Program-made: the position numbers and the translations under genes
Notes under the pieces: model-generated
Seen by the model: the letters and a program-made list of their open reading frames with translations, nothing else
The model's database searches: none
What the model was told of the DNA's origin: nothing
DNA from: an uncultured Roseovarius sp.
Lineage (GTDB): Bacteria; Pseudomonadota; Alphaproteobacteria; Rhodobacterales; Rhodobacteraceae
Length of the DNA: 64,000 nucleotides
Assembly: GCA_947499555.1 (NCBI GenBank)
Contig: CANMOU010000003.1
Location: 526,404 to 590,403 of the forward strand
Direction: 5' to 3'
Shown: positions 3,818-47,726 of the stretch, one piece after another
How the letters are laid out: the number at the start of each line of letters is the position of its first letter
Position numbering within the stretch: the stretch's first letter is position 1

Positions 3818-5098
3818 ATGCCCCCGATCCAAGACCACCCCCTCCGCTACCAGCTCGCCAACGAACTCCACGCGCGCCCCTTTCCCACCGTCAAGGCCCC
3901 CGCCACCGCCGTCTTCCTCGCGGTCAAACGCCTCGACAGCGCCGCCGCACGCGACCGGAATGCGGATCTGGAGCATTTGCTGGCGCTCTTGGATCGCTAT
4001 GGCGCGCCGCATCCGCAGCCGGACGCTTCGCACTATTCTGGCGATCTGGGGCATTACAGCCTGAAATGGGAAAGCCATACGGAATTCGTGACCTACACCG
4101 CTTTCCGCGATGGTGTCAGCGACCGGCCTTTTGATCCTGCGGATTTTGAAGTTTTTCCAACAGATTGGCTCGACAGTTTGCCGGGGCACAGAGTGACATC
4201 GGCGCTGATACGGATCGAGACCTCCAAAGAGGACGCGGCGGTTCGCACCGATGTTGCAGAACATTTCGTATCTGAAAGCGTCGCCGTCGCACGTGTGCTT
4301 GACGACACCGCCATTGTGGCTGGTGATTTTCGCATCGATGCGGCCGGTCACCTGCGCTTTCTGATCAATGCGTCAGAAGATACCGGCGCGCGCCGGATCG
4401 GCCGGATTGTCCAGCGCCTGTGCGAAATCGAAACCTACAAAGCGATGTCCATGCTTGGCCTGGCCCGCGTGCGGGATATGGGGCCGGAACTGGGTGCGCT
4501 TGACCAGCGCCTGACACAACTCATCAGCCATATGCCCGGCGGTGCCGTGAATGCAGAGGACACGCTGGATGACCTTCTGGCCATTTCAGCAGAGCTTGAG
4601 GGCATGGTCGCGCGGTCTTCCTACCGATTTGGCGCCACCGCCGCCTACGAGCAGATCGTCAAGCAGCGCATCGATGTTCTGCGAGAAGAGCGGTTTCTGG
4701 GCCGTCAGACCTTTGGCGAGTTCATGATGCGTCGCTACGATCCTGCGATGCGCACGGTCCGGTCCACCAAAGAGCGGCTGGATGCCATGGCGGACCGCGC
4801 GATGCGCGCGGGCGAGCTGTTGCGCACGCGCGTGGATGTTGAGCGCAGTGCACAGAACCAGGATGTGCTCGAAAGCATGAACCGCCGCGCCGACCTGCAA
4901 CTGCGCCTGCAGCGCACTGTTGAGGGCCTGAGCGTAGTGGCAATCAGCTACTACGCGGTGTCGCTTGCGGGCTACGTGCTTTATCCTCTGGCCGAGCCGA
5001 CCGGATTAAGCAAAGACATGTTGACCGCGCTGGTCGCATTTCCGATCCTGCTTCTCGTCTGGTGGCTGGTGCGCCGTATCCGGCGAAAACTGGAGTGA
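3818..5098 (+). CDS. DUF3422 family membrane-anchored protein
   Basis: The 426-residue product begins with the conserved DUF3422 block HPLRYQLANELHARPF. The large N-terminal part is soluble and includes a helical, probably coiled region (about residues 230-350). Two hydrophobic segments near the C-terminus (about 365-388 and 400-420), followed by an Arg/Lys-rich end, anchor it in the membrane. The family occurs widely in proteobacteria and has no established function that I know of. The ATG at 3818 agrees with the conserved N-terminus, although the ribosome-binding site is weak. It converges with the next gene on the minus strand, with 24 bases between the stops. Confidence 0.85.
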   Translation: MPPIQDHPLRYQLANELHARPFPTVKAPATAVFLAVKRLDSAAARDRNADLEHLLALLDRYGAPHPQPDASHYSGDLGHYSLKWESHTEFVTYTAFRDGVSDRPFDPADFEVFPTDWLDSLPGHRVTSALIRIETSKEDAAVRTDVAEHFVSESVAVARVLDDTAIVAGDFRIDAAGHLRFLINASEDTGARRIGRIVQRLCEIETYKAMSMLGLARVRDMGPELGALDQRLTQLISHMPGGAVNAEDTLDDLLAISAELEGMVARSSYRFGATAAYEQIVKQRIDVLREERFLGRQTFGEFMMRRYDPAMRTVRSTKERLDAMADRAMRAGELLRTRVDVERSAQNQDVLESMNRRADLQLRLQRTVEGLSVVAISYYAVSLAGYVLYPLAEPTGLSKDMLTALVAFPILLLVWWLVRRIRRKLE

Positions 5099-5122
5099 AG
5101 AAAGGGCCCCGTTGCGGTACGA

Positions 5123-5881
5123 CTACTCTGCCGCAACAATCCCGTATCTCCGAAGCTCTTGTGGCAAAAGAACATAGATTTCATCCGGCGGCGTGGTCAA
5201 AGCGGGAACCATGACCAGTGGATCAATGCCCATCTCATCAAGAAAAAGCATCACTTCGCCCTGTCCGGCCTGAATATCTTCCACGGCAAAAGAGGCGGGG
5301 AGGATCGAGCTTTCACCGAAGTAATGCTGGTGCACGCCCACTTGCGCCTTTTCATCCACCTCCCGTTCCACTCCGCCCATCAGGATATAGGGGCAGGCGG
5401 AATAGCAGTACTCCCCGGCCAGCATACGGGTATTGATGCCGGTTTGCCGAATGTAGCGGCCAAGCTCCAATGCGTCGCCCACAACCCCGCCGGGGGATTG
5501 CAGGATCAGCCACTCTGGGGCAGGCTGGGTGTCTTGCAGAAGCTTGATGATCCGCTCCGCATCGCCTTCGCTGACGCCACCTTCAAGGCGATAGGTGGTC
5601 CCATCGGATTTCGTAAGCACAAGCCGGTCCGGAAGTTGCCCAGGATCACGGGCAGGGCGCGTTGCGGGGCGGTCTCGACCGGGGTTGAAAACCCTCCGCT
5701 GGTCACCGGGACGCACCGGCTCGGTCAGGCGCGGGGCATCGGGGCCAAAGCCGGGCAGGGCAAACCGCGCTTGCTGCACATCGCCCAGCACAAGAAACGC
5801 GCCAATCGCCAGCTGGAACACCAATACTGCCGTCAGAACACGCGCCACAAGCGGGCCTCTGGGCTTTTGAGGTTTGCTCAT
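5123..5881 (-). CDS. Predicted periplasmic ClpP-like serine protease (COG3904-type)
   Basis: The 252-residue protein has an N-terminal membrane segment (about residues 12-33), a Pro/Arg-rich linker, and a crotonase/ClpP-like domain from about residue 80. Key elements are LILQSPGGVVGDALELG and GEYCYSACPYILMGG; the Ser in the second is the expected nucleophile. The following segment contains VHQHYFGE, whose His residues could complete the active site. The topology puts the domain in the periplasm. Its ATG overlaps the stop of the upstream coiled-coil membrane gene in an ATGA junction, so the two are translationally coupled. The substrate is unknown; the catalytic assignment is from motif reading only. 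Confidence 0.75.
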   Translation of the reverse strand: MSKPQKPRGPLVARVLTAVLVFQLAIGAFLVLGDVQQARFALPGFGPDAPRLTEPVRPGDQRRVFNPGRDRPATRPARDPGQLPDRLVLTKSDGTTYRLEGGVSEGDAERIIKLLQDTQPAPEWLILQSPGGVVGDALELGRYIRQTGINTRMLAGEYCYSACPYILMGGVEREVDEKAQVGVHQHYFGESSILPASFAVEDIQAGQGEVMLFLDEMGIDPLVMVPALTTPPDEIYVLLPQELRRYGIVAAE

Positions 5882-8173: not shown

Positions 8174-8485
8174 TCACTCTCCCACCTCAATCGCGATCTC
8201 CTGCCGTAACTCGCCGGTCTTGGCGTTAAAGATCAGAATCTTGTTGTCGCCCGTCACCACCGCGTACCAGCCATCGCCGCGCGTATAGGCCGTGGGCACC
8301 GTGCCGTCGGGCAGGGTGATCTCATCAGGTATCTCGGGGCCGAACGCGTCCGAGAACTTGGTGACAAAAAGCGCCACGATCACTATGAACCCCACAACCA
8401 TCACGGCGGTCAGAACCGTCACCAGAAGGCGCAGGTATTTCACCAGCCCGGGGTCGATGGGGTTTGGATCTGGAGTGTCATTCAT
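8174..8485 (-). CDS. DUF6476 family small membrane protein
   Basis: The product has 103 residues, with a short hydrophilic N-terminus, one membrane segment (about 16-40, LLVTVLTAVMVVGFIVIVAL) and a soluble C-terminal domain containing DGWYAVVTGDNKILIFNAKTG. I assign it to DUF6476 from memory of this architecture in Rhodobacterales. The start at 8485 is preceded by GGAAGGGG. The start codon overlaps that of rluD on the other strand (shared CATG), so each leader lies inside the other gene. The stop lies two bases from the tRNA-His 3' end. Confidence 0.8.
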   Translation of the reverse strand: MNDTPDPNPIDPGLVKYLRLLVTVLTAVMVVGFIVIVALFVTKFSDAFGPEIPDEITLPDGTVPTAYTRGDGWYAVVTGDNKILIFNAKTGELRQEIAIEVGE

Positions 8486-9524
8486 GGGCGAGGCCCCTTC
8501 CAAGACGATATCGGTGCGCATCGCGGCCGATCCGCCGCCTCGCCTTGATAAGGCGCTTGCGCGCGATGTGCCAGAGGCGGCGGCCTTGTCGCGCACGCGG
8601 CTGGCCAGGCTTATTGCAGACGGCCTTGTGGTGATGAAGGGGCAGGCGATCACCGATCCCAAACGAAAGGTGGATGAGGGCGACATCATCGAGATCACGG
8701 TCCCGCAAGCTCAAGAGCTAGACACCGTGGCGCAGGATATTGCGCTCGACGTGGTGCATGAAGATGCCGACCTCATCGTGGTGAACAAACCGGCGGGGCT
8801 GGTGGTGCATCCGGCACCGGGAAGCCCGGATGGCACGCTGGTAAATGCGCTCTTGCATCATTGCGGCGCCAGCCTGTCGGGGATTGGCGGGGAAAAACGG
8901 CCCGGGATCGTGCACCGGATCGACAAGGATACCTCGGGCCTTCTCGTCGTGGCGAAAACCGACGCGGCCCATCACGGGTTGGCCGCTCAGTTTGAGGCCC
9001 ACAGCGTTGAGCGCAAGTATCTCGCGCTCGTGCATGGCAGGCCTGATGCGGCGGATCCGCGTCTGCGTGGCATCAAGGGCGCAAGTTTTGAGCCGGGCAA
9101 TATCCTCAAACTCACCACGCAGCTCACGCGCCACAAGACGGACCGGCAGAAACAGGCGGTGGTGTTTCAGGGCGGGCGGCACGCGGTGACGCGCGCACGG
9201 CGGATCGAGACATTTGGGACGCCACCGCAGCTTTCCATGCTGGAATGCTGGCTCGAGACGGGCCGGACGCATCAGATCCGAGTGCATATGGCCCATGCCG
9301 GGCATGGATTGGTTGGTGATCCGGTCTATGGCGGACGACGCAAATTGAATGCCGGGGCATTGAATGCAGAGGCTTTCGCCGCTGTAAACGCCTTTGCCCG
9401 TCAGGCGCTTCACGCAGCGGTTTTGGGCTTTGAGCACCCGGTTTCGAAGGAAATCCTACAGTTTGAAGCGCCATTACCCTCTGATTTTGAGGAACTTGTG
9501 GGAAAATTGCGTCGTTGCGCCTGA
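8484..9524 (+). CDS. rluD: RluA/RluD-family 23S rRNA pseudouridine synthase
   Basis: The 346-residue enzyme has an N-terminal S4 RNA-binding domain (about residues 15-75). The catalytic domain carries the signature HRIDKDTSGLLVVAKT, whose first Asp is the nucleophile, and GRTHQIRVHMAHAGHGLVGD. RluD makes pseudouridines in helix 69 of 23S rRNA; the exact target is inferred, since other RluA-type enzymes share these motifs. The ATG at 8484 has GGAG nine bases upstream and overlaps the divergent DUF6476 start. rpoH follows after about 175 bases, an arrangement I know from other alphaproteobacteria. Confidence 0.88.
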   Translation: MGEAPSKTISVRIAADPPPRLDKALARDVPEAAALSRTRLARLIADGLVVMKGQAITDPKRKVDEGDIIEITVPQAQELDTVAQDIALDVVHEDADLIVVNKPAGLVVHPAPGSPDGTLVNALLHHCGASLSGIGGEKRPGIVHRIDKDTSGLLVVAKTDAAHHGLAAQFEAHSVERKYLALVHGRPDAADPRLRGIKGASFEPGNILKLTTQLTRHKTDRQKQAVVFQGGRHAVTRARRIETFGTPPQLSMLECWLETGRTHQIRVHMAHAGHGLVGDPVYGGRRKLNAGALNAEAFAAVNAFARQALHAAVLGFEHPVSKEILQFEAPLPSDFEELVGKLRRCA

Positions 9525-10689: not shown

Positions 10690-11727
10690 TTGCGCGCCTT
10701 TTTCATCATCTGTTTCCTGGCCCTCACCGCCTGTGCCCCACGCGAGGCGGCGCAATATGCCGTCGCCGTTCCCGAGGCGCAGATTGAGCAAGTCTATGTG
10801 GCAACACAAAAGGCGCTCGACAATAACGGACAAACATTTGGCGAGCGCCGGACCGGCGAAATGCAATACTTCCGGGCGGCGGTGTCAATCCCGCCGACAC
10901 ATGAGCCCGGCTCGATCCAGTGGCCGGAGGGCCCGCCAGATGCCGCCACGGATTTCGTTGTCACCGAGACCGAAGTCTATGGGTCTGCCTCGCCGTTCAT
11001 TGGAACGGTCAAGTTAAATCGCCCGGGGCGAGAGACGCAGGTGTTTGTCCACGGGTACAATTCGACATTGTCCGACGGCATGTTTCGCACCGCTCAGATG
11101 CGTAAGGATTTCGGTGTTGAGGCGCCGACGGTTCTCTTTTCCTGGGCGTCTGCGGGTGATCCGCGGGGCTACATCTATGACCGCGACAGCGTGCTTTACG
11201 CCCGTGACGATCTTGAAGCTCTGTTGAAACAGCTGACAAGCGGGGCAAATGACCGTGTCGTCATTATGGCCCACTCGATGGGCTCGCAGCTTGTCATGGA
11301 AGTGATGCGTCAGGCGGCTTTGCGTGGCGACCGAACGCTCTTGCGCCGGATCAGCGCCGTGGTGCTGATGTCTCCTGATATCGATCCTGACGTGTTTCGC
11401 AGACAGGCCGAGGCGGTTGGCGATCTTCCGGACCCGTTCCTGATCTTCGTCTCGCAACAAGACCGCGCACTGGGTCTGGCAAGCTTCATCACCGGACGCA
11501 AACCCCGCCTTGGCGTGATTGATAACCCTGACGCGGTCGAGGGTCTCCCGGTGCGTGTCATTGATTTCACCGCGCTGGCAAATGGCGAAGGTCTTGATCA
11601 TGCCGTGGCCACGACCTCTCCGGCCGCGATATCTGTGCTCAGGGGGATGATCTCTCAGGCCGGGTCGGGGCAACCGGCGTTCCAGCGTTACATGGTTCTT
11701 ACGACATTGCCCGCGCTTGGCCCTTAG
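10690..11727 (+). CDS. Lipoprotein alpha/beta hydrolase (DUF900)
   Basis: The 345-residue protein starts at a TTG and has a short signal peptide with lipobox LTAC, so Cys15 should be lipidated after export. The alpha/beta hydrolase domain has the oxyanion block VFVHGYNS (around residue 120), the nucleophile elbow AHSMGSQ (Ser about 200) and a late His in GLDHAVA. It matches the DUF900 group of predicted esterases/lipases. The substrate is unknown, and the location is probably the periplasmic face of a membrane. The ribosome-binding site is weak. It is preceded by the rpoH terminator, so it forms its own unit. Confidence 0.8.
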   Translation: MRAFFIICFLALTACAPREAAQYAVAVPEAQIEQVYVATQKALDNNGQTFGERRTGEMQYFRAAVSIPPTHEPGSIQWPEGPPDAATDFVVTETEVYGSASPFIGTVKLNRPGRETQVFVHGYNSTLSDGMFRTAQMRKDFGVEAPTVLFSWASAGDPRGYIYDRDSVLYARDDLEALLKQLTSGANDRVVIMAHSMGSQLVMEVMRQAALRGDRTLLRRISAVVLMSPDIDPDVFRRQAEAVGDLPDPFLIFVSQQDRALGLASFITGRKPRLGVIDNPDAVEGLPVRVIDFTALANGEGLDHAVATTSPAAISVLRGMISQAGSGQPAFQRYMVLTTLPALGP

Positions 11728-11849
11728 AGCCCTATTTCGTCAAGCCAGAGCCAAATATTTGCCCCTTTCTTGTGCGCATATAGCGCCAAGGAAACTTGGC
11801 CCAAGCTGTGGAAACGCCTTAAAAACAGGGCTTGGGAAAGGGCAAACAG

Positions 11850-13157
11850 GTGAAAAAGCTCGATACTGTCGCAAGCAATTGGACGGCGCTTATCGGATGC
11901 GCCTGCCTTGGCTTGGGCCTTGTCTATTGCGCCATGGTGCCTGCGGAGAACCCGGTTTCAGGAGCGCTCTTCCTGCTCATGTGCTACCTCATCCCCGTCG
12001 CTCTTTTCGAAATTCTGGGTCGCAAGATTCATCGCCGCGCCTCGACCGGTCTTGATTGGGAAACCTCTCGGAGCCCGAATTTGCAGCGCGTGGTTGTCAA
12101 GCTGGTTGGCTTCTTCGGGATCATGGCGGCGATGATCGCCATCCATGCTGTTTTCCGGATCTACGCGGTGGAGCGGCTGATCCTGCCACTTGCCGCGCTG
12201 CAGTTGCTCTTGCCTGTCTGTCTGCCTTTGGTGATTGCCTACTTCTATTTTGTTGACCGGCGCATGCGCGAGCCGCATGACGGCTATTATGAGTTCGGTC
12301 AACTGCTCCTGCGGCGCAACACGGATCCGGATTGGGCGCTTCTGAGAGACTTCGCGCTGGGCTGGATGATCAAGGGGTTCTTCCTGCCTGTGATGTTCGC
12401 CTATCTCGCGCTGCAGATGCCGCGCCTGCACCTTGATCTGAACCAATTGATGCAAGGGCCGGTTGCGGCGGCGGTCTATCTCACCACGGCTTTGGTGATT
12501 GTCGAACTTACAATTGTCGTTGTTGGCTACGCCATGACACTCCGGCTTTTTGATGCGCATATCCGCTCGCCAAATGGACTTCTTGGCGCCTGGGTTGTCA
12601 CGCTGATCTGCTACGAGCCTTTCAACAAGATCGCCTCTGGCCAAATCTATCCTTATCGTACTGAACAGGACTGGTCTGCGGTCGCAGGTGATTATGCACT
12701 TCTGATGTGGCCCTGGATTATCCTTGTCCTTTCGGCGTTCCTGCTGTGGGTCTGGGCCACGGCGATTTTTGGATTGCGCTGGTCCAATCTCACCCATCGT
12801 GGGATCATAACCAACGGGCCTTACGCCTTCACCAAGCACCCTGATTACGTTGCAAAGAGCCTTTTCTTCTGGCTCACCGCCGCGCCTTTCCTGACAGCCG
12901 CCACGCCCTGGCAGGCGGTGACCGGCACGCTGTCGCTCTTTGTCATCAACGCTGTCTATTTCGGGCGTGCCCGGATGGAGGAAAAGCATCTGTCCGAGGA
13001 CCCCGATTATGTCGAATATGCGCTGGCAATGAACGAGCGCAGCATCTTCCGTGGAATGGCCAGGTATCTTCCGTTTCTGACCTACCATGCGCCGGACCGG
13101 CAGGGGTCTGACACAGGGCGGAAGAGTGACGCGCCACAAGGCCTGCCTGCCGAGTAA
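11850..13157 (+). CDS. Multi-spanning membrane methyltransferase-like protein (ICMT/PEMT type)
   Basis: The 435-residue protein has about nine or ten hydrophobic segments. Near the C-terminus it carries ITNGPYAFTKHPDYVAKSLF and RMEEKHLSEDPDYVEYA, which match the SAM-binding region of isoprenylcysteine carboxyl methyltransferase-like and phospholipid methyltransferase-like families. The substrate is unknown. The GTG at 11850 is preferred because AAAGGG lies six bases upstream; a TTG at 11832 would add six residues. The polar C-terminus beyond the last helix is about 30 residues long. The gene stands alone between the DUF900 lipoprotein and the YbiI-like pseudogene. Confidence 0.75.
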   Translation: MKKLDTVASNWTALIGCACLGLGLVYCAMVPAENPVSGALFLLMCYLIPVALFEILGRKIHRRASTGLDWETSRSPNLQRVVVKLVGFFGIMAAMIAIHAVFRIYAVERLILPLAALQLLLPVCLPLVIAYFYFVDRRMREPHDGYYEFGQLLLRRNTDPDWALLRDFALGWMIKGFFLPVMFAYLALQMPRLHLDLNQLMQGPVAAAVYLTTALVIVELTIVVVGYAMTLRLFDAHIRSPNGLLGAWVVTLICYEPFNKIASGQIYPYRTEQDWSAVAGDYALLMWPWIILVLSAFLLWVWATAIFGLRWSNLTHRGIITNGPYAFTKHPDYVAKSLFFWLTAAPFLTAATPWQAVTGTLSLFVINAVYFGRARMEEKHLSEDPDYVEYALAMNERSIFRGMARYLPFLTYHAPDRQGSDTGRKSDAPQGLPAE

Positions 13158-39078: not shown

Positions 39079-40155
39079 ATGGCGAATTTGGATGCGCAGG
39101 TCCGCGAAAGCCAAGCTCAGGTTGAAGAGGCGCAAGCCAAGATTCAGGAGCTGACAAGCCGCATTGAAGAGGCGCGGAGCAAGATCAAGGGCGGCGAAGA
39201 TGCAACACTAGACATCGAGAATGCCTCATTGGACGAGGTGCATGCGCATACCGAGATCATGAACGCCAATATTGCCGAGCTCATTATGGGGCTCGATGAT
39301 ATCACCGCAGGATTTTCCAAGGATTTCGACGAAATGCGCGGCAAGACCGGCTGGGAAAGCTTGGTTGGGATCTTCAGCAGCGCGAAATCCGACAGCATGC
39401 GGCAGGATCGTATTCGCACCGCGAGCATTGATGACAAGCTGCAGGATCTGATTTCCAAGTCCGACGTGATCGTGAGCCTTCTGGAAGGCCAGTTGCGCAC
39501 GCTGGAAGAGCATAAGGTAAAGGTTGAGGGCAACCTGACCGAAACATTGGACGAGCGCGAATTGACCGTGGGAGAGCTGGAGACGCTGCGCACCGATATT
39601 CAGGGTATGGACCCCAAGATCATCGAGTTGGAAAACAAGATCGCCAATGAAACGGATGCTGCTGCCCGCACCAAGCTGGAAACTGAACTGGCTGAGATGA
39701 ACGCCAAATACAACGAAATGGTCCAGCAAGAGCAGGTCAAGCTCGCCAAATCCCAGACGCTGGAGCGTTACATCGAGAAGGGCAAGACCTGGGTCGACAG
39801 CCTGCAGAACCAGGCCGCCACGCAGATGGTGCTCATCAACAAGCTGCAGACCGACACCAAGCAGCGCGTGGTGCTGTATGACGCGCTGACCAAATCGCTG
39901 AAGACGGCGCAGCAACAGGATGTCGCCCACCGCATCAACGAAATCGGCGTGCAAACCGACCAAGAGGCACAGTCGGCCATGGCCGGCATTGGGGCGGCGA
40001 CCAACAAGCGGATGGCCGATATGCTCGAGGCGCATGAAGATCACATGGTCTTTGCCCGCGAGGTCTTGGAAGCCAAGGCCAAGGCGGATGAACGCTTTGC
40101 CCGGCGCTTTGCCAAGATCATCGAGAAACACGACGCCAACGCGTATGGAGGCTAG
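39079..40155 (+). CDS. TelA-like coiled-coil protein, first gene of an uncharacterised cluster
   Basis: The 358-residue protein is almost wholly helical. It has an N-terminal coiled coil (residues 1-45), a middle domain with WESLVGIFSSAKSDSMRQDR, and further long coiled segments. The order of helices and the segment QNQAATQMVLINKLQTDTKQ recall TelA (toxic-anion-resistance) proteins, but the similarity is only by eye. There is no signal peptide or membrane helix. GGGAG six bases before the ATG is a good ribosome-binding site. The next gene starts three bases after the stop, so it opens an operon with a small membrane protein and, further on, an AAA+ ATPase. Confidence 0.72.
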   Translation: MANLDAQVRESQAQVEEAQAKIQELTSRIEEARSKIKGGEDATLDIENASLDEVHAHTEIMNANIAELIMGLDDITAGFSKDFDEMRGKTGWESLVGIFSSAKSDSMRQDRIRTASIDDKLQDLISKSDVIVSLLEGQLRTLEEHKVKVEGNLTETLDERELTVGELETLRTDIQGMDPKIIELENKIANETDAAARTKLETELAEMNAKYNEMVQQEQVKLAKSQTLERYIEKGKTWVDSLQNQAATQMVLINKLQTDTKQRVVLYDALTKSLKTAQQQDVAHRINEIGVQTDQEAQSAMAGIGAATNKRMADMLEAHEDHMVFAREVLEAKAKADERFARRFAKIIEKHDANAYGG

Positions 40156-40158
40156 GCC

Positions 40159-40320
40159 ATGGGATTGGGAGTAGCCCTGATTGCACTTTGCGTGCTCTGC
40201 CTCATCGTGTCCTTTGTCTTTACCGTCCCGGCTTGGATCAACCTGATGGGCATTCTGTTTGGCATTGCGGGCCTCGTGATGATCGGCAAGGGCCGGAAGG
40301 GTGGCGGGGACAGCGCGTGA
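40159..40320 (+). CDS. Small membrane protein, 53 residues
   Basis: The ATG at 40159 opens a 53-residue frame with two hydrophobic segments (ALIALCVLCLIVSFVFTV and INLMGILFGIAGLVMIG) and a basic Gly-rich tail. GGAGGC ahead of the ATG overlaps the end of the upstream gene. The three-base gap behind the TelA-like gene and the 20-base overlap with the next gene show that it is translated as part of the operon. It probably forms a hairpin in the inner membrane. It is short enough to be missed by standard gene calling. Confidence 0.75.
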   Translation: MGLGVALIALCVLCLIVSFVFTVPAWINLMGILFGIAGLVMIGKGRKGGGDSA

Positions 40321-41467
40321 CTTCGGACTTTATGACGCGATGATGGAAACCGCATCTTCGACCCACGATCGTGCGGCCCTTACCGATCTTTTCGCCTCAC
40401 GCCGCTACTTTGCCAAGTTCGAGAAGATCACCGCGCATCTGAACCGTGTCGCCGCCGTGATGCAGGCCGAAGGCGCGCTCACCAAGCAAGAGGTTGAGGT
40501 GCTGACGGCCTATGTGCAGGCCATCGCCTACACGTTCAAGGCGCTGGCGATGAAATACCTACTGGTGGGGCGCGACACCGGGCAATTCTTCGGCTCTCTG
40601 CAGATGGATGTCGAGGAAAGCGGCTTTCCGATGTTCTCCGAACTGATGGTCATGGCCAATGACGCAGCTCAGGCCTGGCAGCACCTCGATGGCCAGCCGG
40701 GGGTCGAGACACTCAAGCGTCAGATGGTCGAGCAGATCATCTCTGATCGTGAGATACCCACACGACTGCAATTTGCCCTGTCGCAAAGGCTTTATTACGA
40801 AGAGCTGGTCAAAGGGCACCTCTTCTGGGCGCAGAATGATCCGAAGATCATCTGGCTGGAAGGGCTCAAAGACCGCCGCCGCTACTTGCTGCACTGGGCC
40901 AGTTATGACAGCCAGGTCAACCTGCCGACCATTTACCTGATGGAGCTCGAGGATACGGGCCGTCGCAGTTTGGGCAAGGATGAACGTCGCTGGCCCGAAG
41001 TGCAGGCGCATCTAATGGCCCAAGCCTTGGGTGGTCTGAAACTTCTGACCATCGCCAAGGGGTTCGACGAAAGCTTTGACGATCTGCACCCCAAACGCCT
41101 GCGCCGCCTTCATGTGGGGCCGATGTACAGCCATGCCTTCACGCGCCAGACCGGGCCGATGCGCGACGTGCTGGCCGAAGCGCAGGCGCCCAAAGGTCAG
41201 GACTGGGCGCTGGCCTGGACCGATGAGGTGTTGGAAAGCGAACGGGTGATTGAAGAGAAATCCGGCTGGTTCGGCACGGTGGAACGAGAGGTCTTTGCGC
41301 TCGATCCGTTCTCGGGCAAGGGCGCGGAAACCGGGGCGACGCGCATGGAGCGTGCCATCATCCTGCCCGAACGCCCCTATCAGGTTCTGGCCGAAAAGAA
41401 CCCGCCGGGTTTTGGCAGCGTGACCAAATACGTGGTCAGCCCGGGCGGGCGGGTGTTGAGGTATTGA
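40301..41467 (+). CDS. Uncharacterised 388-residue cluster protein
   Basis: The frame begins at a GTG overlapping the small membrane gene by 20 bases, with AAGGG at workable spacing; ATGs at 40340 and 40343 are alternatives. The first 150 residues are helical (SRRYFAKFEKITAHLNRVAA). The rest is mixed, with segments such as FWAQNDPKIIWLEGLKDRRR and LHPKRLRRLHVGPMYSHAFT. I recognise no family, active site, signal peptide or membrane helix. Location between a TelA-like gene and an AAA+ ATPase gene suggests that it is a soluble part of the same complex. Confidence 0.7.
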   Translation: MAGTARDFGLYDAMMETASSTHDRAALTDLFASRRYFAKFEKITAHLNRVAAVMQAEGALTKQEVEVLTAYVQAIAYTFKALAMKYLLVGRDTGQFFGSLQMDVEESGFPMFSELMVMANDAAQAWQHLDGQPGVETLKRQMVEQIISDREIPTRLQFALSQRLYYEELVKGHLFWAQNDPKIIWLEGLKDRRRYLLHWASYDSQVNLPTIYLMELEDTGRRSLGKDERRWPEVQAHLMAQALGGLKLLTIAKGFDESFDDLHPKRLRRLHVGPMYSHAFTRQTGPMRDVLAEAQAPKGQDWALAWTDEVLESERVIEEKSGWFGTVEREVFALDPFSGKGAETGATRMERAIILPERPYQVLAEKNPPGFGSVTKYVVSPGGRVLRY

Positions 41468-41488
41468 AGATAATGGATTGAAGCAAGA

Positions 41489-42364
41489 ATGGTTGAATAC
41501 ACAAAACTCAAACAAGTTTCGTTAAAAGATCACCCGGAAATTCGTGAAGAATGGGTGCAGAATGTCATCGCCGAGGATCCAAGTATCTTAGGCCTTGGAG
41601 AGGTTTACCTCAGAGACCGCGAAAGGATCCAACCGAAGGCGGGCAGGCTTGATCTGCTTCTGCAAGATCCAGAAACAAGTCGCCGGTACGAGGTCGAAAT
41701 TCAACTTGGTGCGACGGACCCGTCGCATATAATTCGAGCTTTGGAATATTGGGACATAGAGCGCAGGCGTTACCCGCAATACGACCATTGTGCGGTCATT
41801 GTGGCCGAGGAGATAACGGCACGTTTTCTAAATGTGATTTCTTTGTTTAATGGCCAAATTCCACTGATTGCAATTCAGATGAAGGCCGTCGAAACCGAAG
41901 GCCATGTGTCTCTGTTCTTCACGAAGGTGCTTGACGAAATTGCTTTGGGACTTGTCGATGAGGACGAAGACGCAGCATCGGCTCCAGCAGATAGAGCGTA
42001 TTGGGAAAGCAAGTCCAACCCAAAGATCGTTAAGCTCGCAGATCATCTCCTTTCTGAGTTGAAAGAGTTAGAGCCGACGCTGGAGCTGAATTACAATAAG
42101 CACTATATCGGCCTGTCTAGGAATGGACAGGCCTTCAATTTCGTCACTTTTCGACCCAAAAAACAGAGATTTAACTTAGAAGTTAAGTTGCCCAGAACTG
42201 ACGCGATTGATGAACTCATCGAGGGCTCGGGGATCGACACTCTTGAATACAACAGCCGGTGGTCGATGTATCGGTTGTCGCTTCGGCCAGAAGACCTACA
42301 GAAAAGTCGAGACGTTGTTGAACGCTTGTGCCGGGATGCCTACACTCGGCGAGTTTCCCAATGA
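41489..42364 (+). CDS. PD-(D/E)XK nuclease-like protein with DUF5655-type C-terminus
   Basis: The 291-residue protein contains AGRLDLLLQDPETSRRYEVE followed by IQLG, an arrangement D...ExQ compatible with a NucS-like PD-(D/E)XK active site. The C-terminal third (ELEPTLELNYNKHYIGLSRN through WSMYRLSLRPEDL) matches the DUF5655 type as I remember it. Base composition is clearly more AT-rich than the flanking genes (38 percent GC in 42121-42180), and flanking junctions of 21 and 58 bases are looser than in the rest of the cluster. It therefore looks like a later insertion. The role could be defence or DNA processing; unproven. Confidence 0.75.
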   Translation: MVEYTKLKQVSLKDHPEIREEWVQNVIAEDPSILGLGEVYLRDRERIQPKAGRLDLLLQDPETSRRYEVEIQLGATDPSHIIRALEYWDIERRRYPQYDHCAVIVAEEITARFLNVISLFNGQIPLIAIQMKAVETEGHVSLFFTKVLDEIALGLVDEDEDAASAPADRAYWESKSNPKIVKLADHLLSELKELEPTLELNYNKHYIGLSRNGQAFNFVTFRPKKQRFNLEVKLPRTDAIDELIEGSGIDTLEYNSRWSMYRLSLRPEDLQKSRDVVERLCRDAYTRRVSQ

Positions 42365-42422
42365 ACTTTGTTAACTGCGTACCCAAGGGTTTGGGTCTGC
42401 ACACCCTAAATAGGATATCCAG

Positions 42423-44357
42423 ATGAGTTTGACGGCCGATACGATGGAGCTTCGCGAAGAAGACATCACCAAGCATTACGAGGCGGCCGCGGCGATGTTG
42501 GCGGGGTTTGATCACACCCCGCGTATTGCAAAGCCTGTCGAGGGCGAGGCGCAGGAGAAATCGGCCGGTCTGGGCACGCGGCGGCGGTTTCGCACCACGA
42601 CGCCTGGGCTGGTGACCCGCTCAACCGCGCGGCCTGAGGGCGTTCAACTGACCGCGCGTATCGAGGGCGCGGATGATGGCGACCCGCTGGTCAGCCCTCT
42701 GCAGGCGACGGTCCTGCACGGGCTGCGCCGGGCCTTGGCCATCGCGTTGGCGGTGGGTGAGCAGTTTGCCGAAGCCACAGGGCTTGCCGATCTGCGCCGC
42801 GCCAATCTGGCGGGGTCTCTGGCCGAGGCGCGAAAATCCGAATTTACCGCGCTTCTGGGGGCCGAGGCGCTGGCCGTGGGGCACGTGTTTGGCAATGCCA
42901 CCGCCTTTCTCATGGGTCCACATAGCTCTGAGGTGAGCGTCGAGGTGGGCGATGTTGAGGAGGTGCTTAGCGACAACGCGCAACTGATGCTGCACGGCGC
43001 ATTGTGGGAGCTGGACCAGGATATTGCGGCCCATGCGGGCGATGATGCGCGGCTCGTTGCGACCGTCGCGGCCTTTGCCGAGCAGTTGATGGAAAAGATC
43101 ACCCTGCGCGCCCAAAACGCCGGAAGGCTCGAGGCCTTTACCGGCGCAAGCTGGCGCGTGGAGGCGGATGACTTCACCATTCGCGGCTTTGAGCCTGCGG
43201 CCAAGGGCAAATCGACAACCCTGACCATGACTTTCAAAAAACCCCATGAGGTCGTGGGCAACCACATCGCCAAGTATCAGGCTTTGAAGCTTTCCAAGAT
43301 GCTCATGGCCTATGATTTCGACCGGCGTCTTAACCCGTTTGCCGAACTGGGCGGGTTCATTTTCACCTTCATGGGCGATGGCAAACCGGGGACGGGGAAG
43401 ACCACGCTCATTCAGATGATGGCGGGCTTGATCAACGAGTATTGCCAGAACGCAGGCTACGCCTTTCGCTACCAGAACCTCAGCACGGACAGCATCGACA
43501 GCTATCAGGGCAAGTCGGCACAAAATGCCAAGGCGTTTATCAACAACGTGCTTGATCCGGGCGTCATCGGCTTTGGCACGATTGATGACATAGACCAATT
43601 GGCGGGTAAGCGCGGCGACCGGCAATCAAGCGCCGGGCAGCTCGAGATCACTGCCGTGCTGATGGAAAGCTTTGCGGGCGCCAACACCGTGGTGCGCGGC
43701 AATTGCACCTTTGGCATGTTCTCGAACTATCCCGAGAATGTGGATGACGCCCTGCGCCAACGCGCTGGGGCGCGGTTTCTTGTCGACGGGCCCCAGACGC
43801 GCGAGGATTACATCGACATCCTTTACCTTCTGATGGGCAAGAACCACGACATCCCGCTGGGCGAGCATGAGGTCTATGCCGCCCAGGAAATCAAAAAGGC
43901 CGTCGCGGCGAGTTTTGAGTCTCACAGCCGCCCGCATGAGGACGGGCTTTTGAAAGTCTATGACCGGGTATCCAAAGACATCGGCGCGCTCGACACGATT
44001 GCCAAGATGGGTACGTATCTCAAGGGCATTCAGGAGGCCGATGAGCGCTTTACCGGACGGGCGATCAAGAACATCACCGATGCGGTGAAGGTGCGGGCCA
44101 TGGACTTTGAACTGCCCGATGAATGGATGGAAAACCCCGATCTGTTCCTGTTCAAGGATTACGACACCAAGAAAGCCATGATCGAAGAGCTGCGCCAGCC
44201 CATCACCATCGAAATGGTGATACAGGAAATCAACCGCTACGCGGATTCAGAGTTCCGCTATGCGGATAAATCCGACGAGGTGGCCATTGAGACCGCCGTG
44301 CGTGAGATGGGGCGCATGGAAGAAGCCAAGCGGCGGTATCTGGAGGGGAAGGGGTGA
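42423..44357 (+). CDS. AAA+ ATPase, core of the uncharacterised cluster
   Basis: The 644-residue protein has a unique N-terminal region (about 1-300) and an AAA+ domain. Walker A is GDGKPGTGKTT (around 318-328), Walker B-like IDDIDQL (around 388-394), a sensor-1-type Asn in MFSNYPENVDDALRQRAG, and an Arg pair in the same segment that could be the finger. The C-terminal helical part ends in a charged tail. The layout recalls MoxR-like or Vps4-like remodelling ATPases, but I cannot assign a subfamily. No membrane segment is present. Neighbours are coiled-coil and membrane proteins, so it may remodel a membrane-bound complex. AGGATATCC precedes the ATG. Confidence 0.85.
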   Translation: MSLTADTMELREEDITKHYEAAAAMLAGFDHTPRIAKPVEGEAQEKSAGLGTRRRFRTTTPGLVTRSTARPEGVQLTARIEGADDGDPLVSPLQATVLHGLRRALAIALAVGEQFAEATGLADLRRANLAGSLAEARKSEFTALLGAEALAVGHVFGNATAFLMGPHSSEVSVEVGDVEEVLSDNAQLMLHGALWELDQDIAAHAGDDARLVATVAAFAEQLMEKITLRAQNAGRLEAFTGASWRVEADDFTIRGFEPAAKGKSTTLTMTFKKPHEVVGNHIAKYQALKLSKMLMAYDFDRRLNPFAELGGFIFTFMGDGKPGTGKTTLIQMMAGLINEYCQNAGYAFRYQNLSTDSIDSYQGKSAQNAKAFINNVLDPGVIGFGTIDDIDQLAGKRGDRQSSAGQLEITAVLMESFAGANTVVRGNCTFGMFSNYPENVDDALRQRAGARFLVDGPQTREDYIDILYLLMGKNHDIPLGEHEVYAAQEIKKAVAASFESHSRPHEDGLLKVYDRVSKDIGALDTIAKMGTYLKGIQEADERFTGRAIKNITDAVKVRAMDFELPDEWMENPDLFLFKDYDTKKAMIEELRQPITIEMVIQEINRYADSEFRYADKSDEVAIETAVREMGRMEEAKRRYLEGKG

Positions 44358-44445
44358 GCGGTCTGTTTCCTGCAGTCCCGCAAGTGATAAGGGACCTTAT
44401 GGTCGGCTGGGAGACCCCGGTTTATGCCCGGGGCGGCGCAAACAT

Positions 44446-44748
44446 ATGACCGCCCTCATCCTCACATCACTTGCAGCTCTTGGTCTCGGTGCTGTGCTAC
44501 CTCTCAAATCACTTCTGGTGCTCTTCCTCGGTGGGGTCCTTCTGCTCTTCGTGATCCATTTCGGCACAATTGCTCTGACCGGTTTCGGTGGGCTTCCGGC
44601 CAGTGACGCGCTTTTGCTTTTTGAAGGGCAGTGGAGCTATTACCTGGCCTATTCCGCAGAACATGCGCTGCGCCGGTTTGCCATACCTGTGATCCTGTTC
44701 GGGGCCGTGCTGATGTGGCGTCTGAGCCGAAAGGAGGATGTGGTTTGA
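44446..44748 (+). CDS. Small membrane protein, about three helices
   Basis: The 100-residue protein starts MTALILTSLAALGLGAVLPL and has hydrophobic segments at about 3-20, 22-48 and 78-95. The last is followed by RLSRKEDVV on the cytoplasmic side. No family is recognised. The stop overlaps the TTG start of the next gene (TTGA), which fixes its frame within the operon. The 88-base gap before it contains a small hairpin, CCCCGG paired with CCGGGG. Confidence 0.7.
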   Translation: MTALILTSLAALGLGAVLPLKSLLVLFLGGVLLLFVIHFGTIALTGFGGLPASDALLLFEGQWSYYLAYSAEHALRRFAIPVILFGAVLMWRLSRKEDVV

Positions 44749-45380
44749 GCCTGCTGGAGTCAAAACCATGGAGCGTCGCCTTGGGCCTCGGGGCGGTCCT
44801 CATCGCCCTGGCCTTCTGGGCGGCCTCTGTTTTTGAAGGCTCCGGGTTGCTGAGCACCACACCCCCCGCCACTGAGGCAAACCCGACCCCACAACCAGAC
44901 ACCGACGAGAGCACCATCCTCGCTCTTTACCAATCCGCCTTCACCGCCTGGGCTGCGCTGGTCCTGTTGATCCCGGCCTATGCCTATTACCTTTCGCAAG
45001 GGGCAAATCGTGGCTGGATGGCTTTCTGGACGGCGTCTTACCTGGCTTATCTGGTGCATCTTTATGTCTCGGCGTTTCTCTTTTTTGGCGGCGATTTTGC
45101 CTGGATGACCAGTTCCTCGCGGGTCAGCGCCTTTTGGCCCGGAATGCTGCTTATCCCGTGGTGGGGATTGGACATCGTCTTGGCGTTCAAATCCATCGAT
45201 GCCGCATGGGTCCGCATTCAGCGCGGGGTTTTGCATCTGGGCACATTTGTGCTTTTCTTTGGCGGCTCAGTGATCAAAGGGGAAACGATGACGATCAAAG
45301 CGCTGGGTATCGTGTTTGCACTCGTGGCATTGGCCTGCCTGATCAAACCCCGCCTCACCGCCTCCGGAAAGGAAGCCTGA
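44745..45380 (+). CDS. Polytopic membrane protein, about six helices
   Basis: The TTG at 44745 is chosen because AAAGGAGG lies seven bases upstream and the stop of the preceding gene overlaps it by four bases. The 211 residues contain about six membrane segments with a Pro/Thr-rich periplasmic loop (around residues 35-55) after the first. There is no recognised transporter or enzyme motif. It is a likely membrane anchor or channel-like part of the cluster. The DUF6638 gene starts one base after its stop. Confidence 0.7.
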   Translation: MSLLESKPWSVALGLGAVLIALAFWAASVFEGSGLLSTTPPATEANPTPQPDTDESTILALYQSAFTAWAALVLLIPAYAYYLSQGANRGWMAFWTASYLAYLVHLYVSAFLFFGGDFAWMTSSSRVSAFWPGMLLIPWWGLDIVLAFKSIDAAWVRIQRGVLHLGTFVLFFGGSVIKGETMTIKALGIVFALVALACLIKPRLTASGKEA

Positions 45381-45381
45381 C

Positions 45382-46788
45382 ATGCACCGCCTGATCCAAT
45401 CCGGCCTCATGTTTGGCAATCTGGTCCACGTGGCCAGCCCCGCACTGGTTGAGCGGTACAACCGGGCGCTCAAGTCGCTGACGGGCAAGACGACCAAGCT
45501 GACGGATTTCTACATCGACATTTCGGGCTACTCCCCCGAGATCGGCCATGAATTGGGCGATGACCTGTACCTCAACCATGCAGGCGTGAACCGACAGTTC
45601 ATCCTGCTCACCACGGATCAGAAAACAGCGCCTTTGCTCAACGCCAAATTCTCCACCGCGCGCGGCATTCTGCGGCAGTTCATCGAGGAAAACGAGTCTG
45701 CGCTTTTTGCTCTCACGGCCCGCGACGCGGTGGCCGGGGAGTTGGTGAATTCGGTCTATGACATGTCCTCGCCCGCGCGGCTTTTTGATATTCGCAAGAT
45801 CACGGTCGAGGCCGATACGACCAACGGCGCGCTGGGGCAGGCGGATGAACTGGCCCAGAAGGTTGATCGCTTCATGTCCGAAGAGGATGCGTGGTTTGAT
45901 GATGTACTCATCGCCGAGATGATCGAACTGGCCGGCCAGACCGGTAACGTGCTGCGAAACCCCATTGAGCTCAAGCAGATGAGCTTTGAGCAGCGCAATT
46001 ACTGGACCGACCATTTCGGCGGCGTCTACCTTTTTCAGGATCTCGATTTACCCGGCGTGATTTGTTCCGCTGACAGCGCACTTTTCGAAGGCGGTCCGAT
46101 TGAGTATGTCTTTGATCTCAGGCATAGAAATCGTATTGCCGGGTTCCTCGAACTCAACGGTCTGGTGGAGCCCATTGTCAAAGCGCGCGGCATCGACGCC
46201 GCGGCGATCCTGCGCCAGAAGATGGATTTCATCCTGGTCGATGCCCTGGCTGGTGAAGGGCTTGATCTGGCGGGGCGCTCTCCTTCCGAAATGCGCCGCC
46301 TCGCGCGCCGCTATGCCAGCCACCTGCCGCGAGAATTCCATACGCTGAACGCGCTGCTGAACTGGGCGGAAAATGGCGGGCCCTGGCCAGTGATCAGCTC
46401 GGATGATCCGGCGTTTTTCTACACGCTGCGCGCGGCTGCACATAAGGATGCCGATCTGGTCAATATGCTTCTGAGCGAACTTGCCCCGAAAGACATCCGA
46501 CAGCTTTTCATCTGCCACAAGACGCTTTTCTACCGCCAATACGCGACCTGGTCGGACGCCAAAAAGAACTATGTCGTCGATCTGCTGATCAATGAGTACC
46601 AAGTGGACAAGCTTGGCACGCGCGAGGCGCTTTTCGGGCATGAGGCCCCGATGGAAGAGCCCGAACCCGCGCCGCCGCCGCCTCCGAAAAAGAAGATTGA
46701 CCGCGTGGGGCCCTGGGGGGCGGTGCGCGCAGTGTCGCGCCGCGGAAGAGGGCCGGATGGACCTGTGGCCAATAAGGGAAGGAGATAG
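45382..46788 (+). CDS. DUF6638 family protein
   Basis: The 468-residue soluble protein begins MHRLIQSGLMFGNLVHVASP and contains NHAGVNRQFILLTTDQKTAP and SKFSTSRGIL-like (KFSTARGILRQFIEENESAL), which I associate with DUF6638 of Rhodobacterales. The C-terminal end has a Pro run and a basic tail. Function unknown. It is tightly linked to the upstream membrane gene (one base) and the following membrane gene (three bases), and shares the cluster with the AAA+ ATPase. Confidence 0.75.
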   Translation: MHRLIQSGLMFGNLVHVASPALVERYNRALKSLTGKTTKLTDFYIDISGYSPEIGHELGDDLYLNHAGVNRQFILLTTDQKTAPLLNAKFSTARGILRQFIEENESALFALTARDAVAGELVNSVYDMSSPARLFDIRKITVEADTTNGALGQADELAQKVDRFMSEEDAWFDDVLIAEMIELAGQTGNVLRNPIELKQMSFEQRNYWTDHFGGVYLFQDLDLPGVICSADSALFEGGPIEYVFDLRHRNRIAGFLELNGLVEPIVKARGIDAAAILRQKMDFILVDALAGEGLDLAGRSPSEMRRLARRYASHLPREFHTLNALLNWAENGGPWPVISSDDPAFFYTLRAAAHKDADLVNMLLSELAPKDIRQLFICHKTLFYRQYATWSDAKKNYVVDLLINEYQVDKLGTREALFGHEAPMEEPEPAPPPPPKKKIDRVGPWGAVRAVSRRGRGPDGPVANKGRR

Positions 46789-46791
46789 GGG

Positions 46792-47058
46792 ATGGCAGCA
46801 CTTGCACGGCTCTTGGTGATCGGCTTTGTCGTCTGCACCATAATTTACATTTGCCTGTCGCTCTATTCACGCGCCGTGCGACGCGGCAAGCTCAAGGAAT
46901 GGTGGGAAGAAGAAGGACGCCCCGGCGATCTTGATACCTATGTCCGCAAAGGGCTTGAAGAATACGATGGCTCACTCCGGCGCAAATTGATCTGGGGTGT
47001 CTATGTGGTGCCGTTCAGCATCGTGGCGGCGATCATCTATTTCACCAATTTCCATTAG
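46792..47058 (+). CDS. Small membrane protein, 88 residues
   Basis: Two membrane segments are visible: LLVIGFVVCTIIYICLSLYS near the N-terminus and VYVVPFSIVAAIIYFTNF at the C-terminus. They flank a charged middle (KLKEWWEEEGRPGDLDTYVR). AAGGGAAGGAGATAGGGG gives an excellent ribosome-binding site. The family is unknown to me. It sits between the DUF6638 and DUF1523 genes with gaps of three and eleven bases. Confidence 0.75.
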   Translation: MAALARLLVIGFVVCTIIYICLSLYSRAVRRGKLKEWWEEEGRPGDLDTYVRKGLEEYDGSLRRKLIWGVYVVPFSIVAAIIYFTNFH

Positions 47059-47069
47059 GGGGTGGCATT

Positions 47070-47726
47070 ATGGTTTACGTGAAATGGATTTTCTGGGTGG
47101 TCTTCTGGCTCTTCTGGGCGGCGTTCTTCCACTACACGCTGCCACAGGTCGATATCGCCCGCGTCACCGACACCTACGAAAAACGGATTGATTTCGGCGA
47201 GAATTCAATCTTCTGGGCCAGTCCCGATGTGGGCAATGACGGCACGTTGGCCAATCGGGATGTGTTTTTCATTCAGACAGTGCGCGCCAACGGCTCAACC
47301 ATGGTCTATCGCAATGAAGACACCGGCTGGAGCTGGCCGCCTTACTTCAAGTTCGACACCTCAAACCTGCAGGCCGAAGCCGCAGATCAGAAATCGACCG
47401 CAGACGCGCCCAAATGGGTGGCCATCAAGCATTATGGCTGGCGCAACGAATTCCTGTCGATCTTCCCCAACGCGGTCGGCGTCAGCCCGGTTTCTGGCCC
47501 CGATGCCCCGAAAGGCATACCTTGGGTGAACCTGATCATTCTTGTGGTCTTTGGTCTTGCCGTGCTTCTGGCATGGCGCATCTGGCGGCGTTTCCGCGCC
47601 CGCCGGATAGACCCGATGGTGGACGGAATTGAGGCGGGGTTCGATGCCGCTGGCAACGCCGTTTCGGAACAGCGCGGGCGCGTGCGCCGGTGGCTCGACA
47701 CCTGGAAGCCCAAGCACAAACGCTAA
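47070..47726 (+). CDS. DUF1523 family membrane protein
   Basis: The 218-residue protein matches DUF1523: an N-terminal membrane helix (WIFWVVFWLFWAAFFHYTLP), then RIDFGENSIFWASPD, VYRNEDTGWSWPPYFKFDTS and HYGWRNEFLSIFPNAVGVSP. A second helix (about 150-170) leads into a basic C-terminal tail. The conserved domain should face the periplasm. Function unknown. It is the last gene of the cluster; its stop overlaps the stop of the convergent sulfotransferase-like gene. Confidence 0.85.
   Translation: MVYVKWIFWVVFWLFWAAFFHYTLPQVDIARVTDTYEKRIDFGENSIFWASPDVGNDGTLANRDVFFIQTVRANGSTMVYRNEDTGWSWPPYFKFDTSNLQAEAADQKSTADAPKWVAIKHYGWRNEFLSIFPNAVGVSPVSGPDAPKGIPWVNLIILVVFGLAVLLAWRIWRRFRARRIDPMVDGIEAGFDAAGNAVSEQRGRVRRWLDTWKPKHKR

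Follow-up and report, generated by a model that had tools for sequence, protein, structure and literature searches.

Do ten adjacent, closely packed genes on one strand of a Roseovarius genome encode a single machine, and what might such a machine do? The question is raised by positions 39079-47726 of the window, by which we mean the whole 64,000-nucleotide stretch of contig CANMOU010000003.1 (positions 526,404 to 590,403) from an uncultured Roseovarius sp. An original prediction, made from this sequence, saw one system of ten genes built around a TelA-like coiled-coil protein, an AAA+ ATPase and five membrane proteins, and proposed a membrane-bound remodelling or stress machine. Comparison with other genomes leads to a different picture. 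The ten genes (g1-g10, Table 1) are not one fixed machine; judged by conservation of sequence and gene order, the core is g1, g3, g5 and g8 together with g9 and g10, and the other four genes are not fixed members. We give roughly even chances to the reading that this core is an undescribed membrane-linked AAA+ module of a defence (conflict) or stress type, conserved and horizontally transferred, with interchangeable effectors.

Conservation of the core genes

Of 121 genomes of the order, one identical set of 70 was matched by the profiles of g1, g5 and g8 (a DUF6638 protein), and the remaining 51 matched none of the three. Each of the three is present in one copy per positive genome, the exception being G076, where the g5 profile also picks up a separate 39-residue fragment. 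This all-or-none presence concerns g1, g5 and g8 only, in the 121 genomes. Fetching 20 kb around the DUF6638 gene in all 69 other positive genomes revealed g1, g3, g5, g8, g9 and g10 in the same order in every one (69/69). The six-gene order also recurred in 69 of 73 full-length loci from named organisms (Roseovarius, Ruegeria, Sulfitobacter, Shimia, Marivita and others) found via g5, these being drawn from 80 named loci that represent the top 80 among 472 confirmed matches to g5 and share at least 10 with the first locus set. Co-occurrence in other genomes, on which the original prediction had staked itself, is thereby borne out for the core.

It does not extend to the remaining genes. Among the 69 fetched relatives, g4 and g6 each have a relative in one, while g2 and g7 were found in none by tblastn. 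Orthologues of g2 are present in G412, G416 and G410 and in the Roseovarius loci L106 and L107 (L106 and G410 probably being one genome); homologues of g6 are present in 5/73 full named loci as well as in G412; and g7 was found in G412 and in the partial locus L150 (56%), with 0/73 full loci positive by tblastn. The g4 nuclease has three matches in the 121 genomes, namely the window itself, G114 (89 bp downstream of g10) and G089, which does not bear the core, and it matched 0/80 named loci. It is absent from the close relative G412, where the gap between g3 and g5 is approximately 50 bp, and its GC content is 0.48 compared to 0.56-0.60 for g1, g3, g5 and g8. On this evidence g2, g6 and g7 are lineage-specific predicted membrane proteins and g4 is an inserted, nuclease-like gene. 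The coupled gene starts had been taken to imply fixed stoichiometry, which does not follow because g2, g4, g6 and g7 are not fixed members.

Variable content between the core genes

Aligned on the core, the loci display three slots of hypervariable content, g1-g3, g3-g5 and g5-g8, with gaps of at least 120 bp in 45, 10 and 62 of the 70 loci, respectively. The slots contain 145 open reading frames (ORFs) of at least 50 amino acids (aa), which were picked by gap coverage and some of which are probably wrong frames (e.g. L044, L042 and L041 in slot g1-g3); a gene caller based on codon usage was not used here, as it missed most slot genes. These ORFs form 95 sequence clusters including 80 singletons, and 104 of them (31 + 4 + 69) contain at least one hydrophobic segment.

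Base composition sets the longer cargo apart. In slot g5-g8 all 26 ORFs of at least 180 aa have a GC content below that of the core they sit in, by a mean of 13.1 points, and the same holds for 30/31 such ORFs in a second locus set (66 loci; mean -12.3), from which 10 loci duplicating the first set, four without core matches and five ORFs of the common family described below had been left out, and in which four long ORFs (L181, L122, L127 and L143) look like g3 itself. Exchange of cargo on a near-identical core is shown by loci L081 and L082, whose cores are 94-99% identical in DNA and whose cargo is unrelated in both slots. In 35/60 loci the slot ORF nearest to g8 runs 4 bases past the g8 start, and ORFs on the plus strand fill 0.94 of the g5-g8 gaps compared to 0.52 for the other strand; the cargo is probably co-transcribed with the core, since it shares its reading direction.

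Pfam was run on 118 of the 145 slot proteins, 26 ORFs shorter than 75 aa and one duplicate having been dropped. It identified 18 families, including putAbiC (2), Mrr_cat with Mrr_N, AbiJ_NTD4, RNase_T with BRCT, Phd/YefM antitoxin and DUF5655, among others. A further 104 proteins from the 66 additional named loci contained 13 families, among them putAbiC (2), Mrr_cat (2), AbiJ_NTD4 (1), PIN_10, DUF433 and DUF2971. Besides small membrane proteins, the slots of many loci carry an AT-rich foreign gene, the classes being abortive-infection-like proteins, Mrr nucleases, AbiJ-NTD4 proteins, DUF5655 nucleases, exonucleases and toxin-antitoxin genes.

The commonest family in slot g5-g8 comprises 28 ORFs of ~103-126 aa with a median of three hydrophobic segments (e.g. 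L043:10643-10984:-), and is a candidate lineage-level core component. Locus L082 displays three accessory units on one core (4613-5270 and 8396-9277, in coordinates of the reverse-complemented locus, and 11698-12558): slot g5-g8 contains an RNase_T-BRCT protein, slot g1-g3 a Phd/YefM-like antitoxin (recognised by eye) together with a neighbouring gene, and a nuclease of the g4 type follows directly on g10.

Distribution beyond the family and horizontal transfer

In a sample of the phylum g5 was present in 26/398 genomes, 12 of them outside the family of the window, and tblastn found it in 10 plasmid records from Sinorhizobium, Shinella, Rhizobium and Vibrio, with copies on megaplasmids. Five of the 10 plasmid matches were opened and seven of the 12 matches outside the family were fetched. 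The quartet g1-g3-g5-g8 lies in the same order on one strand in 13/13 distant loci, including rhizobial and Vibrio megaplasmids, as detected by profiles built from Rhodobacteraceae rows only. Using profiles that include Sinorhizobium and Vibrio rows, DUF1523 (g10) was found in 3/13 of these loci (L103, L227 and L228) and g9 in 1/13 (L227). In the two Vibrio records the quartet genes are 48-98 bases apart and are followed by mfd; the homologue of g3 is 25% identical, and that of g8 is annotated as DUF6638.

A phylogenetic tree of the concatenated core (FastTree, branch supports aside) places L227, from another class, and L228, from another family, inside Rhodobacteraceae, which points to horizontal transfer of the core between lineages; alignment A2 was made without g3 of L096, a wrong ORF call. 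Within the window's own genus, the neighbourhood of one flanking gene was taken from 11/18 genomes. The operon lies at the same place in three of these and elsewhere in one, and the remaining seven have no core gene in the stretch, three of them lacking g1, g5 and g8 genome-wide. The nearest flanking genes belong to 22 families upstream and 34 downstream, the largest shared downstream family being present in 25/70 loci, so that the locus occupies several chromosomal settings. A patchy, horizontally transferred distribution such as this (70/121 genomes, with L227 and L228 nested) is one of the features by which anti-phage systems are recognised.

On pSymB of Sinorhizobium meliloti, an endonuclease-domain gene and an IS4-type element (L184:12106-13851) lie between g5 and a DUF6638-like gene, a position that corresponds to slot g5-g8 of Rhodobacteraceae. 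A DUF2333-annotated gene after the DUF6638-like gene (L184:15340-16563) could stand in for DUF1523.

Identity of the core proteins

The AAA+ ATPase of the original prediction is confirmed: g5 matches Pfam AAA (PF00004, E value 8.1e-12) at 46.2 bits compared to a cut-off of 21.2, which places it in the family, and its Walker A, TIDD, sensor-1 Asn, ALRQRA and GR motifs are invariant in 12 aligned rows reaching out to Vibrio and Sinorhizobium. In AAA+ proteins such motifs represent Walker B (TIDD), sensor 1 and the arginine-finger region, and their retention as far as Vibrio makes it likely that g5 is an active ATPase. Its matches to named proteins are weak (TRIP13 at 2.1e-5 and IetA in PADLOC, PDB entry 5ubv at 2.1e-4), and its N-terminal region of ~310 residues has no Pfam family near the cut-off. 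Pfam further identified g8 as DUF6638 (PF20343, E 2.2e-224), g10 as DUF1523 (PF07509, E 9.6e-71) and a DUF5655 domain in g4 (E 8.7e-7); g1, g2, g3, g6, g7 and g9 had no Pfam match reaching the curated cut-off. The core proteins had no NCBIfam match near model level. Searches of PDB sequences with g1, g3 and g8 returned nothing useful, and g1 gave weak coiled-coil matches in PADLOC (e.g. LmuB, 2.2e-4).

The TelA likeness claimed for g1 did not hold up. The window's g1 had no hit to TelA (PF05816) at E 1, TelA did not appear among the families listed for 13 g1 proteins at E 5 (25 of 40 shown), and hhalign gave a probability of 1-2.4% against 15 TelA frames found among 25 loci. The genome's true TelA is encoded on another contig (G000:C6:56326-57318; PF05816, E 8.6e-109). 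PspA/IM30, of the Psp/ESCRT-III type, was likewise rejected, with no match for the window's g1 or among the families shown for the 13 g1 proteins. A cyclase of the cyclic-oligonucleotide-based anti-phage signalling system (CBASS) was also sought, and no nucleotidyltransferase match was found in any of the ten proteins by Pfam, NCBIfam or PADLOC, searches that a very diverged one could escape.

Genes of the window

All ten plus-strand ORFs are present, and the original description of mostly tight junctions is accurate: from g1 to g10 the intergenic distances are 3, -20, 21, 58, 88, -4, 1, 3 and 11 bases, so that 6/9 junctions are overlaps or gaps of at most 11 bases. The count of five membrane proteins also stands, as a simple 19-residue hydropathy scan found hydrophobic segments in g2, g6, g7, g9 and g10 and none in the quartet g1, g3, g5 and g8.

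The close relative G412 has 9/10 of the genes, and in this single genome pair the ratio of non-synonymous to synonymous substitution rates (dN/dS) is 0.034-0.126 (g1 0.034, g2 0.086, g6 0.12, g7 0.126). The nine shared genes are very likely real, and in view of its low dN/dS this probably includes even the 53-aa g2. The start of g3 is a different matter. The original prediction relied on an overlapping GTG at 40301, which adds an N-terminal extension that most aligned relatives lack, their starts falling close to the ATG at 40340/40343. In G412, moreover, the end of g2 lies well upstream of g3; on both counts the GTG start is doubtful.

Table 1. Predicted genes of the locus, in window coordinates
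Gene	Description	Position	Strand	Remark
g1	358-aa coiled-coil core protein	39079..40155	+	kept in 69/69 fetched relatives
g2	53-aa protein, two hydrophobic segments, slot g1-g3	40159..40320	+	close relatives of the window only
g3	388-aa core protein	40301..41467	+	true start may be ATG 40340/40343
g4	nuclease-like protein with DUF5655 C-terminal domain; accessory cargo in slot g3-g5	41489..42364	+	
g5	644-aa AAA+ ATPase, core	42423..44357	+	Pfam AAA and invariant motifs
g6	100-aa predicted membrane protein, slot g5-g8	44446..44748	+	hydrophobic segment
g7	211-aa predicted membrane protein, slot g5-g8	44745..45380	+	three hydrophobic segments; TTGA overlap with g6
g8	DUF6638 core protein	45382..46788	+	PF20343
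g9	88-aa protein, two hydrophobic segments	46792..47058	+	kept in 69/69 relatives
g10	DUF1523 predicted membrane protein	47070..47726	+	hydrophobic segments near start and near residue 150

Interpretation

In the reading we favour, a conserved AAA+ module with interchangeable effectors, the quartet g1, g3, g5 and g8 would be the fixed core, joined in Rhodobacteraceae by the membrane proteins g9 and g10. The sequences themselves show the division into core and cargo, the all-or-none presence of g1, g5 and g8, transfer between distant lineages and the replacement of cargo on nearly unchanged cores. We infer that the core proteins form a complex, which would be anchored to the inner membrane through g9, g10 and the small slot proteins. 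There the g5 ATPase ring and the g1 coiled coil would sense or pass on a trigger, possibly phage infection or envelope damage, and the core would then unleash or restrain a cargo protein that disables the membrane or cuts nucleic acid; control of the cargo in this way might protect the cell, and swapping of cargo would diversify the response. A more ambitious proposal is that the four-gene AAA+ core represents a new class of immune machine in Alpha- and Gammaproteobacteria, a shared membrane-linked trigger for interchangeable effectors at set places within its own operon, which horizontal transfer could re-arm with new nucleases or abortive-infection proteins. We put this forward tentatively, and on balance are inclined to doubt it.

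A number of observations weigh against a defence module. The core is strongly conserved (70-87% for g1) and single copy, a combination that is unusual for many defence genes; for none of the core proteins did a named defence family come near model level, the matches in PADLOC-DB 2023 all being weak; g5 was found in no phage record by tblastn; both Vibrio loci lack cargo between the core genes; the commonest slot family (28 ORFs) has host-like GC; and a recognised defence domain is missing from most slot ORFs. The association of cargo with the operon points both ways, and was assessed for putAbiC, Mrr and the g4 nuclease after these families had been seen. In favour of the defence reading, putAbiC has five matches in the 121 genomes, two of them inside slot g5-g8 compared to ~0.0007 expected (taking slots as ~0.015% of bases and assuming a mean genome of 3.95 Mb), and two of the three genome-wide matches of the g4 nuclease are in or beside the operon; against it, Mrr_cat has 43 matches, one of them in a slot.

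Nor were PADLOC hit counts in the slots enriched over those in flanking or genus controls. At E 1e-3, slot proteins matched 21 families (7/118 proteins), compared to 13 families for the nearest flanking genes (a random 118 of 139 usable proteins) and 37 for other genes of the genus (118 drawn at random from 136 candidates of 75-360 aa). The genus control is not independent, its proteins having been taken from the window and from eight neighbourhoods within a single genus, which share orthologues, and its matches are inflated because its candidates are longer than the slot proteins (median 216.5 compared to 115 aa). Both controls were compared by PADLOC; the Pfam families of the cargo given above are for slot proteins. 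Since matches at this threshold are common in both controls, the PADLOC counts lend no support to defence cargo.

In one alternative, the core is a machine for envelope maintenance or stress, its AAA+ protein acting as a remodeller with coiled-coil and membrane partners, and the slots are an insertion hot spot where unrelated genes, some of them of defence type, benefit from the expression of the operon. The strong purifying selection seen in the single pair of genomes compared, the single copy, the five membrane proteins, the native GC of the common slot family with three transmembrane segments, the DUF1523 gene beside the core in 69/69 relatives and the lack of defence enrichment by PADLOC would all fit such a role. 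It is harder to reconcile with the absence of g1, g5 and g8 from 51/121 genomes, three of them of the same genus, with transfer between lineages, with the presence in both locus sets of cargo of the abortive-infection, Mrr and AbiJ types and with the frequent overlap of cargo with the start of g8, and no direct envelope evidence was found. The original proposal of a remodelling or envelope-stress machine leaned on the TelA likeness; it now stands as a rival that we consider unlikely, if still the strongest of the alternatives, and the slot cargo is more suggestive of conflict or defence, though it is no proof.

Less probable again is a lineage-accessory operon of metabolic or signalling function, whose gaps tolerate insertions and whose cargo is transient and functionally unrelated. 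Such an operon could account for the fast turnover of cargo between L081 and L082, for the near-empty slots of L090-L092 (gaps of 34-85 bases) and for the many short slot ORFs, some of them probably wrong reading frames. Against this, the g5-g8 gap varies in distant loci as well, the ORFs in it are co-directional, and comparison of the window with G412 indicates purifying selection on g2, g6 and g7. A TelA/Ter-type cluster for tellurite or toxic-anion stress could be suggested by the coiled coil of TelA-like length in g1 and by a weak 43-column TelA match near the same positions, but g1 fails the TelA profile tests, the true TelA lies elsewhere in the genome and none of the ten proteins has a Ter-family Pfam match, making this explanation highly improbable.

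Relation to known systems and significance

Known systems resemble the cluster in part. With classical AAA ATPases such as TRIP13/Pch2 and the ATPase domain of the i-AAA protease (5ubv), g5 shares the AAA motifs, but Pfam does not relate g1, g3 or g8 to the partners of those ATPases, and the N-terminal ~310 residues of g5 are unmatched. CBASS and other immune operons combine a fixed core with exchangeable effectors, including membrane proteins and nucleases, and some CBASS include a TRIP13-like ATPase. The present cluster likewise has a fixed core and exchangeable genes for membrane proteins and nucleases; unlike CBASS, its core genes have no cyclase, HORMA or CARF-type match (Pfam, NCBIfam, PADLOC), and its cargo lies between the core genes. 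The TelA family is similar to g1 in length and coiled coil, without significant sequence or profile similarity. LypABC of Caulobacter, according to the available part of its description (PMC13236601), is a CARD-NLR-like, lysis-linked system with an Orc1-like ATPase, TPR-like repeats, peptidase domains and a CARD. Both are alphaproteobacterial operons with an ATPase, but none of those LypABC features, as given there, was found in the present cluster by Pfam.

A literature search by name found no paper naming DUF6638, and the four papers that name DUF1523, judged from their listing, appear to do so incidentally. Combined searches, judged by titles and the openings of abstracts, found no description of such a cluster. 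The expectation that no described system has this composition thus agrees with what we found in Pfam, NCBIfam, PADLOC 2023 and the literature; within these searches the system appears to be undescribed, and a fixed core with swappable effectors is a principle known from other immune operons.

The core is present in 58% (70/121) of the sampled genomes of the order, yet our searches turned up neither a published name nor a function for it. If it is an envelope machine, it would constitute a large and so far nameless part of roseobacter and rhizobial biology. If instead the slots are effector positions, the operon would be a catalogue of new effectors, with dozens of unrelated families gathered at a single address, and the near-identical cores with different cargo would amount to a natural swap experiment on the re-arming of an immune core.

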